From Bacteroidales bacterium (GTDB lineage: Bacteria > Bacteroidota > Bacteroidia > Bacteroidales > UBA12170), in contig JAGGUP010000078.1 of the NCBI GenBank assembly GCA_021158405.1, positions 1-57,769 on the forward strand: DNA of 57,769 nucleotides, written 5' to 3'. The position numbers were made by a program, and so were the translations under genes. Position 1 is the stretch's first letter. Each line of letters starts with the position of its first letter. The notes under the pieces are model-generated. The model worked only from the letters and a program-made list of their open reading frames with translations, made no database searches and was not told where the DNA came from. Shown in pieces: positions 9,427-20,573 of the stretch.

Positions 9427-10344
9427 TCAGGCCTTGTTAGGGCATAAAATATAGATCAAGCTGGAAGTTGTGGGGTTTTGAGCAGAACTTTTAATATTTG
9501 ACCGCAAAGCGATATAAATTGCCCTAAAAAATCCCCATTTTTTTCCAATGAATTTTTCTGACAGTAATGAAACATAAAAAGCATCCAGTTTCATTGGATA
9601 GATTTTTTCGATAACAAAACCATGCTTAGTAGCCAGGTTTTCGATGTCTTTTTTAGTAAAATGATAAAGATGACGAGGAACATCGTAAGCTGCCCAGTAT
9701 TTATCATAATAATTAGCATCAAAGGAATCAAGATTAGGTAAAGCCAATATTAGTGTTCCTTTTGGTTTAATAAGCCTGAGTAATTCGCTCATTCTTTCAT
9801 TTAAATCATGAACATGTTCTAGCACATGCCACATGGTGATTAAGTCGAATGAATTGTATTCTAATTTTTTTAATTCACTTTCAGAATTAATTTTTAATTC
9901 GAAATTATTTCGAGAAAATTCGGCAGCTTCATTATCCGGTTCTATTCCCTGAACCAACCAGTTCTTATTTTGGAGATAATTTAAAAAATGACCCGTTCCA
10001 CTTCCAATATCCAGAGCTTTTCCAACTGTAGTGTGTTTTTTAATAATCGCATATTTAAAAGCAAGATTAAGATATCTGGCTAGCTGATATAAAACAGCAA
10101 ATAAACCCGTGCTTTTGTTGGAATGTGATATATAATCTTCGGATTTATAATAGAGACTGATTTGACTTTTTAAAGGTCTCGGATTGGTAAATTGAAATCC
10201 GCAAACACTACATTTACTTATCGTAAATACTTCCTGACTCAGAAAATAGTCTTTGAGTTGAAATTGTTCCTTTATGTTATTGCTTTCGCAAATAGGACAG
10301 ATTTGTATAGATTCTTGTTTATGTTCCACGTGAAACGAGATCAA
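9427..10344 (-). CDS. Class I SAM-dependent methyltransferase with N-terminal zinc-ribbon
   Basis: The N-terminus has two CxxC knuckles (C16, C19 and C45, C48), typical of a small zinc ribbon. The methyltransferase domain follows with motif I ALDIGSGTGHFL (110-121), an acidic SAM residue (GIEPD) and MWHVLEHV (171-178). This layout is common in methyltransferases of cell-surface polysaccharide or lipid loci; the substrate is unknown. The start is TTG 10344, directly after the mnmG stop codon (10345), or GTG 10329. Both lie on the parS-like site at 10322-10337. It is probably translated from the mnmG transcript. Confidence 0.85.
   Translation of the reverse strand: MISFHVEHKQESIQICPICESNNIKEQFQLKDYFLSQEVFTISKCSVCGFQFTNPRPLKSQISLYYKSEDYISHSNKSTGLFAVLYQLARYLNLAFKYAIIKKHTTVGKALDIGSGTGHFLNYLQNKNWLVQGIEPDNEAAEFSRNNFELKINSESELKKLEYNSFDLITMWHVLEHVHDLNERMSELLRLIKPKGTLILALPNLDSFDANYYDKYWAAYDVPRHLYHFTKKDIENLATKHGFVIEKIYPMKLDAFYVSLLSEKFIGKKWGFFRAIYIALRSNIKSSAQNPTTSSLIYILCPNKA
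10322..10337. promoter_or_regulatory. parS-like ParB-binding site (15 of 16)
   Basis: The sequence TGTTCCACGTGAAACG matches the known parS consensus TGTTnCACGTGAAACA at all but the last base. It sits inside the first codons of the methyltransferase gene, right after mnmG. Confidence 0.75.
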
Positions 10345-12216
10345 TTAACGGCCTAAAAATACGAGTAAAACAGAAATGTCTGAAGGAGAAACTCCACTTA
10401 TTCTAGAAGCTTGTCCAATTGTTCTGGGTTTAATTGAAGTCAATTTTTCCCGTGCTTCAAAAGAAATGGATTGCAAATTCTGATAGTCAAAATCCAAGTG
10501 AAGCTCGATATCTTCAAACTTTTGAAGTTTAGAAGCAATTTCTTTCTCCTTTTTTATATATCCTTCGTATTTGATTTGAATTTCTGCTTCTTCCAAAATT
10601 TCCTGATCAATATCCGGATGTTCTTCAATGAATATTTTCAATAATTCTATTGCATCTGTTAAACCATCCAAATGCAGTTGAGGTCTCAAGAGCAATTGAG
10701 ATATTCTAGTTTTTTGTACTATTGGTTGTGTTCCTGATTGAATACAATAGTCGTTTACCTCACTTGGTAATGCCGAAGTGTTTTTACAATATTTTATAAA
10801 CGCATCTAGTTCCCTTTCTTTGATAAGAACTCTACTTAATCGTTCTTGTGAAGCAAGCCCAATAGCATGGCTTTTTTTTGTAAGACGTAAATCTGCATTA
10901 TCTTGACGAAGTAAAATTCTATACTCAGCTCTTGATGTAAACATACGGTAAGGTTCGTCCACGCCTTTTGTGATCAAATCATCGATTAAAACTCCAATAT
11001 ACGCTTCGGCACGACCAAGCATAAATGGCTTTTTATTTGCAATCTTTAAGTGCGCATTGATGCCTGCCATTAATCCTTGAGCTGCTGCTTCTTCGTATCC
11101 TGTTGTTCCATTTATTTGACCAGCAAAATAAAGACCGGAAATTAATTTAGTTTCTAATGTATAATTTAATTGCTCCGGTGGAAAATAATCATATTCGATA
11201 GCGTAACCAGGTCGGAAAATTTTAGCATTTTTAAAACCCGGAATTAGTCTCAAAGCTTTTAGTTGAATATAATCAGGCAAGCTGGATGAAAATCCATTTA
11301 CATAATATTCTATTGTTGTCAAACCTTCAGGTTCGATAAACAATTGATGACTATCCTTATCGGAAAAACGCTCAATTTTATCTTCAATGGAAGGACAATA
11401 ACGAGGTCCAACTCCACCAATCCTACCTGTGAACATCGGCGATAAATCAAATCCTAATTTCAAAGTATTATGTACTGTTTTACTGGTATAAGCCAAATAA
11501 CAGCTTCGTTGCTTTTCAAGTTTTACTGTATTTAAATAACTGAATTTTCCAACTAAATCATCTCCTTTTTGTTCAGTCAAAAGTGAAAAATCAATAGTCC
11601 TTCCATCAACTCTTACAGGTGTTCCGGTTTTCATCCGACTGGCTCTAAAACCCAATTTCACTAAATCTTCAGTAATTCCCGTTGAAGCAGCATCACCCAT
11701 ACGTCCGCCATAAAGTGTTTTTTCCCCAATAAACATTTTACCATTTAGAAATGTTCCAGCAGTTATAATAACCGCTTTGGCATAAATTTTCTGCCCCATT
11801 TTTGTACGAACACCTACTATACAATTATCTTTAACCAAAATACCAATAACGCTGTCCTGCCAAAAATCTAAATTGTCTGTTTGCTCCAACATTTCACGCC
11901 AAGTTTGAGAAAATAACATTCGGTCGCTTTGGGCTCTCGGACTCCACATTGCAGGTCCTTTTGAACGATTTAACATTCGGAATTGAATCATACTACTATC
12001 CGTAACAATACCTGAATATCCGCCTAAGGCATCAATTTCACGTACAATTTGACCTTTAGCAATTCCTCCCATAGCCGGATTACAAGACATTTGAGCAATT
12101 TTATCCATGTCCATGGTTATCAGTAGTGTCTTGGAACCTAGATTTGCAGAAGCAGCGGCGGCTTCAGAACCAGCATGACCAGCTCCAACAACTATTACAT
12201 CATATTTTTCAAACAT
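10345..12216 (-). CDS. mnmG: tRNA uridine-5-carboxymethylaminomethyl modification enzyme MnmG
   Basis: FAD-dependent partner of MnmE; together they install the cmnm5/nm5 group on U34 of certain tRNAs. The 623-residue protein has the N-terminal FAD-binding [10 protein letters not shown] (11-20), then [13 protein letters not shown], the family signature [15 protein letters not shown] and the second signature [14 protein letters not shown], with a helical C-terminal domain for MnmE and tRNA. Length is normal. It is often near the replication origin, and here it is bracketed by two parS-like sites. It heads a unit with the methyltransferase; ybeY lies 81 bp upstream on the same strand. Confidence 0.97.
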
Positions 12217-12224
12217 TTTATGCT

Positions 12225-12240
12225 TGTTTCACGTGAAACA
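12225..12240. promoter_or_regulatory. parS centromere site (perfect 16-bp palindrome)
   Basis: TGTTTCACGTGAAACA is an exact match to the chromosomal parS consensus bound by ParB. It lies 9 bp upstream of the mnmG start, between mnmG and ybeY. Confidence 0.88.
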
Positions 12241-12297: not shown

Positions 12298-12726
12298 TTA
12301 TAAATCAGGCTGCAAAGATAAATAATAATCTTCTTTCAAAGTCATTTCAGCTTTATCTTCCTGACTTTTGTCTTTATAACCCAGCAGATGCAAGACTCCA
12401 TGAATAATAATTCTTCGAATTTCCTGATTTATCTTTTGTTTAAATAGACTCGCATTCTCATAAACACGATCTAAACTAATATAGATTTCCCCCGCTAAAT
12501 ATTTATCAGAGCTATAGTCGAATGTAATAATATCAGTATAAGTATCATGATCTAAAAATTCTACATTTATAGCGTGTAAATAATCATCATCACAAAAAGT
12601 AAAACTTAATTCTCCTACTGTATATCCTTCATCTATGGCTGTAGAAACAATCCATGATCGAAGAATTGAAAGATCATTAGAATAAATCTTTTTGGTAGTA
12701 TCTATAAAAACAATATTGGAATCCAC
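12298..12726 (-). CDS. ybeY: Endoribonuclease YbeY (16S rRNA maturation)
   Basis: A 142-residue metal-dependent RNase involved in 16S rRNA 3'-end processing and ribosome quality control. The catalytic motif is IIHGVLHLLGYKDK (107-120). H109 and H113 match the first two ligands of H-x3-H-x5-H, while position 119, the third ligand, is Asp rather than His. I believe this is a lineage feature of Bacteroidota YbeY rather than loss of function, but that is from memory. It follows the RsbW-like gene by 3 nt, which indicates one operon. Confidence 0.9.
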   Translation of the reverse strand: MDSNIVFIDTTKKIYSNDLSILRSWIVSTAIDEGYTVGELSFTFCDDDYLHAINVEFLDHDTYTDIITFDYSSDKYLAGEIYISLDRVYENASLFKQKINQEIRRIIIHGVLHLLGYKDKSQEDKAEMTLKEDYYLSLQPDL

Positions 12727-18716: not shown

Positions 18717-20573
18717 TTATATCAACACTATTTTATCCGTCACAACCAGTCCTTCTTTCTTTGTTTCTTTATTAAACAAATAAATTGCTAAATGATATTT
18801 TCCCGGTATTAGGTTTAAAATAGAAGAGGCAACCACAAAACCTGAATTACTTAAATCAAAATCACTTTTAAAATAGCTTGTCACATCCGTTCGAATGACT
18901 TTTTGAGTTTGAAGCCTTTCAGCAATCTTTTCTCCTTCTTTTAGGAGAACAATATCTATTACCGAATTCGTTGCAGCTTGCTGATCAAAATAAGCCCATC
19001 CACTTATTTTGACCATATTATTTGGCATTTCGAACATTTCAATATTATAAAGAAAACTATCACCATTGTATTGATGTAATGCACCAAATTTTGATAAATC
19101 AAGCGTTTGAGGGACATCTTTTAGTAAGATAAAATGCTTCGTCCACGCTTGAAAACCATCATAATTATTCTCAATATAAAAATGAGTATTCATAAAATTT
19201 TGACTGCTTTCTGTTAACTTATAGTCTCTACCAAAACCATCTATATACCAAAAAGGCTTAATCCTGATAGAATCCTTTTGCATTTCTTGGATGTAATCTT
19301 CCAATGAACTATCTATAATAGTATAATGAACATCTTCATTTTGAAGAAAAAACGGCATATACCAACCTAAACTACTCACCACAGGTGTATTATTTAAATT
19401 ATTTTGGCTAATAAAATGTGTTGATTCTCTAAATTGTGCTTTTATAATTGTATGATAATAATTCTTTATAACGAGAATATCGGTCATTGAAAAAACAAAA
19501 AACAAGGATAGAATAAGCGTTCTGAACACTTTATTTTGAAACTGACTTATCCCAATCGCCAGTATTAAAATAAGAGCAGGTAAAATAACTATAAAATATC
19601 TGCTGATAAGCATAGGCACAGATAGATAGCTTCGAATCAGCGGTATAAGCAATACAATAATAATCCATGTTATCAAGACAATAAAATTAAAAATAGTCTT
19701 GTTTTCGATGATCGATCGATAACTAATTGAAAAGTCCTTTTCTTTTCCCAATTTTATAAAATAACTAAGAAAAACCAATCCTACGATAGGGAAAAGCAGC
19801 TCTGAATTTCCAAAAAATTCTTTAATAATAAGTGTGTAAACATCCAGAGTAGGAGCGGGAATCCAGAATTCTGTGATATTCATAGATTTTATGAATAATC
19901 CCAGCGATGGAAGATAAAGAACCAAAGTCACAACACCCGACAGCAAAAGGGAAATAAAGAATTTTAATCTGTCTTGTTTTTCAACTAAAAGCAGGAAAAA
20001 CAACATTAGCAAATAGTGAGTAAACAAAACAAACAAGCCGAAAAAATGACCATAAATCATTAAAGCAGCAAACACACCATGCCAAATTGCATTTTTCCTA
20101 TTTGGCGTTTTAAGAAAGATAATGAGGCGATAAAAGGCCAGGATAGTAAAGAAAACGAGAAAAATATAAGGCCGCCCTTCCTGTGAATAATACAGATGAA
20201 AATAATTTATACTTAAAAGAAAAGCCGCAATTAAACCCACTTTTTTGTTGAACATTTCCTTCCCTAAAATAGCGATCGCATAGACTCCAAGAACACCTAA
20301 AATAGCAGAAAACAATCTTAAAACAATTGTTTTATATCCAAATACGGCAAACAAAATACGAACAAAAGCAAAGTATAAAGGTGGGTGAGGATCTGAAGCC
20401 AGTAGTGAATTGTAAAATGCTATCCAACTTAAATTTGGATTCGACTCGTTTAAAGTATGGATTTCGTCTAACCATACACTTTGAAAATCAATATGATAAA
20501 ACCGTAAGAGTACTCCAAAAAGGAGTATTGAAAGTAAAATAGAATTTTGTTTAATGAACTGTAAAAGTTTCAT
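18717..20573 (-). CDS. Glycosyltransferase family 39/ArnT-like membrane protein
   Basis: A 618-residue polytopic inner-membrane glycosyltransferase that uses polyprenyl-phosphate sugar donors. The N-terminal half has about 11 membrane segments, with VWLDEIHTLNES (34-45, acidic DE) and SDPHPPLYF (60-68) as expected catalytic and donor motifs. The C-terminal 140 residues are periplasmic and beta-rich (VKISGWAYFDQQ), a likely carbohydrate-binding or assembly domain. The upstream GtrB-like gene may supply the donor; their spacing of 12 nt suggests an operon. The acceptor is unknown. Confidence 0.87.
   Translation of the reverse strand: MKLLQFIKQNSILLSILLFGVLLRFYHIDFQSVWLDEIHTLNESNPNLSWIAFYNSLLASDPHPPLYFAFVRILFAVFGYKTIVLRLFSAILGVLGVYAIAILGKEMFNKKVGLIAAFLLSINYFHLYYSQEGRPYIFLVFFTILAFYRLIIFLKTPNRKNAIWHGVFAALMIYGHFFGLFVLFTHYLLMLFFLLLVEKQDRLKFFISLLLSGVVTLVLYLPSLGLFIKSMNITEFWIPAPTLDVYTLIIKEFFGNSELLFPIVGLVFLSYFIKLGKEKDFSISYRSIIENKTIFNFIVLITWIIIVLLIPLIRSYLSVPMLISRYFIVILPALILILAIGISQFQNKVFRTLILSLFFVFSMTDILVIKNYYHTIIKAQFRESTHFISQNNLNNTPVVSSLGWYMPFFLQNEDVHYTIIDSSLEDYIQEMQKDSIRIKPFWYIDGFGRDYKLTESSQNFMNTHFYIENNYDGFQAWTKHFILLKDVPQTLDLSKFGALHQYNGDSFLYNIEMFEMPNNMVKISGWAYFDQQAATNSVIDIVLLKEGEKIAERLQTQKVIRTDVTSYFKSDFDLSNSGFVVASSILNLIPGKYHLAIYLFNKETKKEGLVVTDKIVLI

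Follow-up and report, generated by a model that had tools for sequence, protein, structure and literature searches.

Paired parS-like sites at the two ends of mnmG, a probable chromosomal centromere in a Bacteroidales genome

Two short palindromes, one at either end of the tRNA-modification gene mnmG (gidA), are very probably the parS centromere sites of a Bacteroidales chromosome, at which the ParB protein of a ParABS system would be loaded in order to segregate the origin region. The sequence of the sites, their uniqueness, conservation and positions and the presence of parA and parB in the genome are direct observations, and from such sequence evidence we infer ParB binding, spreading and segregation, as well as the proximity of this genome's own origin. 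The sites lie in a stretch of 57,769 nucleotides, which was analysed in its entirety and is termed the window below.

The site pair and the proteins that may serve it

The region under study comprises the following features:

9427..10329, minus strand: class I SAM methyltransferase of 300 aa with an N-terminal CPIC motif (PF13489), its start assigned by start-codon comparison
10322..10337, no strand: parS site 2, TGTTCCACGTGAAACG, with one mismatch (15/16), overlapping the first methyltransferase codons
10345..12216, minus strand: mnmG (gidA), tRNA uridine-5-carboxymethylaminomethyl(34) synthesis enzyme (TIGR00136, 820.5 bits, E 7.9e-247, over the cut-off; GIDA, PF01134)
12225..12240, no strand: parS site 1, the perfect palindrome TGTTTCACGTGAAACA, between ybeY and mnmG
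12298..12726, minus strand: ybeY, rRNA maturation RNase (TIGR00043), upstream of mnmG and in the same direction

Both palindromes were pointed out in an earlier note on this DNA, which described a perfect and a 15/16 parS match bracketing mnmG, and both are present. Compared with the 16-bp consensus palindrome of parS, TGTTNCACGTGNAACA, site 1 has no mismatch and site 2 has one, while comparison of site 2 with the exact letters of site 1 reveals two differing positions, one of them the degenerate fifth. Site 1 is located upstream of mnmG, its end 8 bp from the start codon of the gene, and site 2 begins 7 bp downstream of the stop codon. The two are the only sites in the window with at most one mismatch to the consensus, and none appeared in 100 dinucleotide shuffles; a first-order Markov model predicts 0.0057 such sites per window and 0.29 per 2.94 Mb. 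Shuffles and expectation together rule out a chance origin of the pair, which the same note had considered very unlikely. Neither are such sites scattered over the genome, since in the whole assembly (genome G000; 2,935,165 bases in 187 contigs, completeness 96.3%) the mnmG-flanking pair represents the sole sites with at most one mismatch. Fourteen additional sites have two mismatches; about seven sites with at most two are expected from the composition of the window, and the reversed pattern of the consensus, which served as the control for parS throughout, gave four.

The genome codes for two proteins of the ParB family. One of them (294 aa) is encoded directly after parA (265 aa) on contig C173, a different contig from that of mnmG and the sites, with domains PF02195, PF17762 and AAA_31 in the pair and with DUF3276 and DUF5683 genes around it, so that the lack of a parB gene, which the note had named as an outcome contrary to its view, does not apply. 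The occurrence of the sites beyond chance, together with a parA-parB operon in the same genome, makes them look like canonical ParB sites. The top NCBIfam match of this ParB is the model of the related protein Noc, at 247.2 bits and thus under its cut-off of 315. In HMMER alignments against Noc, the ParB has R (GKKRST) where Noc has Q (GKGQST), and G (SMGHAR) where Noc has R (TERHAR). In the sections of PMC7383237 drawn upon here, parS is contacted by R173 and G201, for which Noc has the equivalents Q173 and R201; the Caulobacter residue numbering was transferred to the present ParB by motif. The position named S172, a conserved contact according to the same sections, is occupied by K. The parA-linked ParB thus carries predicted recognition residues of the parS type (R173, G201) and not of the Noc type (Q173, R201). 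The second ParB-family protein (L012:1252-2082, on contig C32 of the same genome) is unlikely to be the cognate ParB, because the GK.R and GHAR letters are missing from its helix-turn-helix and because no parA-like ORF of at least 90 aa lies beside its gene on the 3.5-kb stretch.

A homologue of Smc (TIGR02168) was not found in this genome at its 96.3% completeness, the best match being 24.1 bits against a cut-off of 567.35, nor did any protein of four congeners included in the search exceed the cut-off; of the 15 genomes covered, 4 do have one. In G104 (G104:C1:416677-420188) the Smc match is divided between two overlapping reading frames that contain stops, which hints at a frameshift or a sequencing error. 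Presence of Smc was also compared with one-sided or two-sided parS among the Smc-searched genomes with known sites, and by eye the two are not cleanly tied: G104 has both Smc and two-sided sites, and G109 has neither.

Conservation of the sites in the genus and across the phylum

The weaker site, which the earlier note called unusual for its overlap with the methyltransferase, is not an isolated case and is conserved in the genus. All eight genus loci counted have one parS-like site with at most two mismatches 7-10 bp before mnmG and a second one 3-7 bp after it. These loci comprise the window, contig C120 of G001, and G002, G004, G005, G006, G007 and G009, both ends of mnmG being required. 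Left out of the count were G003, in which mnmG was not over the cut-off; G010, whose contig ends inside mnmG, with the upstream site present; and G008, which has the upstream site at two mismatches and lacks the downstream one, its junction between mnmG and the methyltransferase seemingly missing, since the mnmG match breaks off early and that of the methyltransferase sets in late. A second mnmG of G001, on contig C306 (64% identical, both sites present), was also left out; it may derive from another organism, and G001 is given as 7% contaminated. The sites of the genus exhibit many substitutions at their outermost bases, and the intergenic DNA that flanks them is, by eye, not conserved. The core has been kept in 8/8 loci in spite of these diverged flanks, which implies present selection.

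The linkage of such sites to mnmG extends well beyond the genus. Among 80 named mnmG loci, which represent the top 80 among 588 relatives found and therefore lean towards the nearest kin of the window, a site with at most one mismatch is located within 150 bp of the gene upstream in 62/79 and downstream in 48/80, on both sides in 44/79 and on either side in 66/79; the reversed pattern occurs there in none. Elsewhere in the flanks of these loci, 11 such sites were counted in 1.24 Mb. Within the same 150 bp, 13 of the 79 loci with both flanks have no site at one mismatch, and eight have none at two mismatches either (L020, L026, L030, L034, L036, L041, L062 and L071), half of the latter being labelled Saprospiraceae or Lewinellaceae. 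In a set of 37 rows of relatives, which include the window's own locus and the second locus of G001, 36 have both flanks, and in 34 of these a site under the one-mismatch, 150-bp threshold accompanies mnmG on at least one side. Genome-wide, 31 of 32 sites in 12 named Bacteroidota genomes, picked for having mnmG on a long contig, lie no more than 6 kb from mnmG (two sites for the reversed control), the sole exception being a Polaribacter site at a distance of about 0.39 Mb. A wider draw of 118 genomes from the phylum revealed exact parS sites in 87 and none in 31. Among the sites listed, which cover 44 of the 87 genomes, the present one included, 72 of the 75 exact ones lie 1 kb or less from mnmG; the sites are linked to mnmG in 41 of these 44 genomes and stand on both of its sides in 18. 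The exceptions are G124, at 25.5 kb, and G116 and G077, in which the site is on another contig. In several lineages parS is one-sided, multiple, or hundreds of bases away from mnmG. Two exact sites fall within the mnmG coding sequence itself, in L027 (about 1475 bases in) and at G069:C1:1086925. In the literature searched, no statement was found that parS is pinned to mnmG across the phylum; the 2007 survey of parS sites by Livny and others may contain part of it.

The overlap of site 2 with the start of the methyltransferase, recorded in the earlier note, takes a particular form in the genus. On the minus strand the site reads TTTCAC-GTG-GAA-CAT, and the likely GTG start of the methyltransferase (10329-10327) falls in its CACGTG core. 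This GTG is in frame with the methyltransferase in all eight genus loci that have both ends of mnmG. In five of them (G001 C120, G002, G005, G007 and G009) there is no further in-frame ATG, GTG or TTG upstream of the GTG, and no ATG ahead of the conserved CPxC motif; G005 has a TTG ahead of that motif, and an AGGAGG six bases upstream of the GTG. The window offers an alternative start at an upstream TTG (10344), and in G004 and G006 an ATG follows 3-4 codons after the GTG. The GTG of the site 2 core is thus probably the start codon of the methyltransferase in the window's genus, judging from these comparisons of reading frames. As a rule for the phylum the same idea was rejected. Outside the genus the reading frame is variable, the methyltransferase often starting well past the site, and among site-bearing rows, with duplicate loci of the same genomes included, 32 are in frame against 40 that are not, which restricts the tight overlap to the genus and a few other loci. 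An influence of ParB on expression of the methyltransferase, as had been suggested, is possible.

The position of both sites raises the alternative that the palindromes are operators, bound by ParB or by another CACGTG-binding protein, for the control of mnmG and the methyltransferase, with segregation as a secondary role. Site 1 would be well placed for this purpose, 8 bp before the start of mnmG, as would site 2 over the start of the methyltransferase, and within the genus the positions of the sites relative to the genes are very constant. The match, however, covers the full 16-bp parS consensus and the genome encodes a ParB with residues of the parS type, and the one-sided, multiple or distant sites of several lineages are better suited to a centromere; we therefore consider it quite improbable that operators are the primary identity of the sites.

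Position of the replication origin

In most of the relatives tested mnmG lies near the origin indicated by GC skew, while dnaA is often far away; this placement is supported in relatives. The complete Polaribacter chromosome (3.25 Mb) has mnmG at 2.45 Mb, dnaA at 1.28 Mb and parB at 0.18 Mb, i.e. 1.17 Mb and about 0.99 Mb from mnmG, respectively. Its third-position GC skew, sampled in 20 stretches, is negative in 10/10 between 0.96 and 2.40 Mb and positive in 9/10 elsewhere. Finer samples relative to mnmG gave -0.034 at -17 kb, +0.007 at +13 kb and +0.112 at +61 kb, and the 21.9-kb mnmG locus itself gave -0.20 in the orientation of the record; the skew therefore switches sign no more than about 60 kb from mnmG. 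Four flank samples were taken in each of ten further genomes, and in eight of these the mean skew is greater to the right of mnmG than to the left, G049 and G050 being the exceptions; in Chitinophaga (G042, 16 samples) the third-position skew has no clear pattern. In ten genomes of the order, selected by the length of their contigs, total GC skew is greater to the right of mnmG in 10/10 and third-position skew in 8/10 (all except G013 and G037). Among 18 single-contig genomes of the phylum, the distance between dnaA and mnmG is 151 kb to 1.77 Mb in ten and shorter in eight, three of which (G055, G127, G158) have dnaA near only across the start of the record, with circularity and rounded lengths assumed. 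With over 100 kb between the two genes in 10 of the 18, dnaA would be a poor landmark here. In the portions of PMC11278836 and PMC12843772 that bear on this subject, oriC was placed at or beside mnmG in single Flavobacteriaceae genomes, using Ori-Finder 2022 and GC skew; in the former dnaA is out of line with the skew, and one figure legend labels the two ends the opposite way.

In the genus, candidate origins can be proposed near the sites. A first scan for DnaA boxes, using TTATNCACA at one mismatch, revealed clusters, and the consensus TTATNMACA was picked after those boxes had been viewed, so that the counts of boxes are not blind. With this consensus, four congeners contain 4-7 boxes in 400 bp of AT-rich DNA about 5 kb upstream of mnmG:

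G001:C120 (L218-L220): candidate oriC cluster
G009:C28 (L221-L223): candidate oriC cluster
G008:C217 (L227-L229): candidate oriC cluster
G002:C154 (L235): candidate oriC cluster

In all four the cluster adjoins a DUF4494 gene and the next gene is nadA (by family search in G001 only). In G010, four boxes lie about 11.5 kb from the left end of the truncated mnmG, beside a nadA-like gene. The minimum of the cumulative third-position skew is about 3 kb or less from the cluster in G001, G008 and G009, where the contig continues past it for just about 12, 4 and 7 kb, respectively, and the contig of G002 ends too soon for a minimum to be placed. Altogether, such a cluster is present in five of ten congener contigs and absent in five, the reversed control attaining at most two boxes there, and clusters of at least four boxes occur in 9/80 named loci against 0/80 for the control. 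The AT-rich clusters situated about 5 kb from the parS pair are therefore regarded as the putative oriC of the genus.

The window itself departs from this arrangement. No DnaA-box cluster was found in it, with a maximum of one TTATNMACA per 400 bp against two for the reversed control. Its third-position skew is +0.103 to the left of mnmG (8 ORFs) and -0.075 to the right (37 ORFs), such that the cumulative curve climbs as far as mnmG and declines beyond it, opposite to what an origin would show; a skew minimum at mnmG inside the window was hence rejected, its sign being reversed. The dnaA gene of this genome is on a different contig from mnmG. From position 18717 to 57769 the gene order is not common to the congener contigs at the threshold used, and three genes to the right of about 18.7 kb were found in G004 in another place and orientation.

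The view of the earlier note that the window is origin-proximal consequently stands in part: it agrees with the relatives, in which mnmG lies near the skew origin, and disagrees with the reversed skew and lacking box cluster of the window. Given this reversed skew and the lack of a cluster, the origin proximity of the genome is something we infer. Most simply, oriC would have been separated from this parS pair by a rearrangement in the lineage of the window; the fragmented assembly cannot locate oriC. The same reversed skew, and the lack of a cluster that 5/10 congener contigs do have, would also suit idle parS relics of a lineage whose origin has moved, an explanation that is very unlikely indeed, since the core has been kept in 8/8 genus loci though its flanks diverged, as expected under present selection, and since no other site with at most one mismatch is available in the genome to take over.

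Proposed mechanism and comparison with known systems

Taking the palindromes as the parS centromere, ParB from the operon on the other contig would most likely load at both sites as a CTP-dependent clamp and spread over mnmG and its neighbours, and ParA would then move the ParB complex, together with the newly copied origin region, to the halves of the daughter cells. In much of the phylum, parS has probably stayed beside mnmG while dnaA and parAB moved, whereby the centromere would be marked by the ends of mnmG rather than by dnaA, and in the genus site 2 would have become part of the translation start of the methyltransferase. As no Smc homologue was found, segregation would depend on ParA or on a condensin that escaped recognition. 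A more far-reaching version can be formulated, in which the centromere of Bacteroidota and related classes is built onto one or both ends of mnmG though dnaA and parAB are scattered, the parS core of the genus doubles as the start of the next gene, and ParB loading, with no Smc found, directly couples the state of the centromere to expression of mnmG and the methyltransferase; taken as a whole, this version seems doubtful to us.

The association of mnmG and parS provides a simple landmark of the centromere, and in most of the relatives tested of the origin, in a large phylum whose dnaA is an unreliable marker. It may be employed for placing the start of a chromosome, for coverage-based estimates of growth rate and for reading contact maps. 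Beyond this, it draws attention to ParABS systems in which no Smc can be detected, and makes one ask why parS should remain tied to a single gene.

The general features of chromosomal ParABS systems with origin-proximal parS are described in the relevant parts of PMC7333895. The system of the window resembles those of Bacillus (Spo0J), Caulobacter (ParB) and Pseudomonas (ParB) in its 16-bp parS, in the domains of ParA and ParB and in the confinement of the sites to one small region. It differs from them in that parAB is away from the sites (on another contig here, and about 1 Mb away in Polaribacter), in that the sites hug both ends of mnmG, and in that no Smc was found over the family cut-off. 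The mnmG-associated oriC studies (PMC11278836 and PMC12843772), in the parts used here, put the origin at or beside mnmG, near which it also lies by skew in most of the relatives tested; parS as a whole word is absent from their main texts. The Hi-C study PMC10197239, in the parts that concern this subject, covers 12 gut bacteria, including two Bacteroidetes, in which clusters of parS mark the origin; dnaA and the origin are not always found together, and its two Bacteroidetes have no known condensin, as with Smc here, whereas mnmG and gidA are absent from its main text. Compared with Noc and its NBS sites, the protein belongs to a related family and matches the Noc model below its cut-off, but the two specificity residues, named according to the sections of PMC7383237 cited above, and the DNA site are of the parS type. 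By its sequence features, then, the predicted system is a canonical chromosomal ParABS centromere, and it is the pinning of this centromere to mnmG that is the interesting part.
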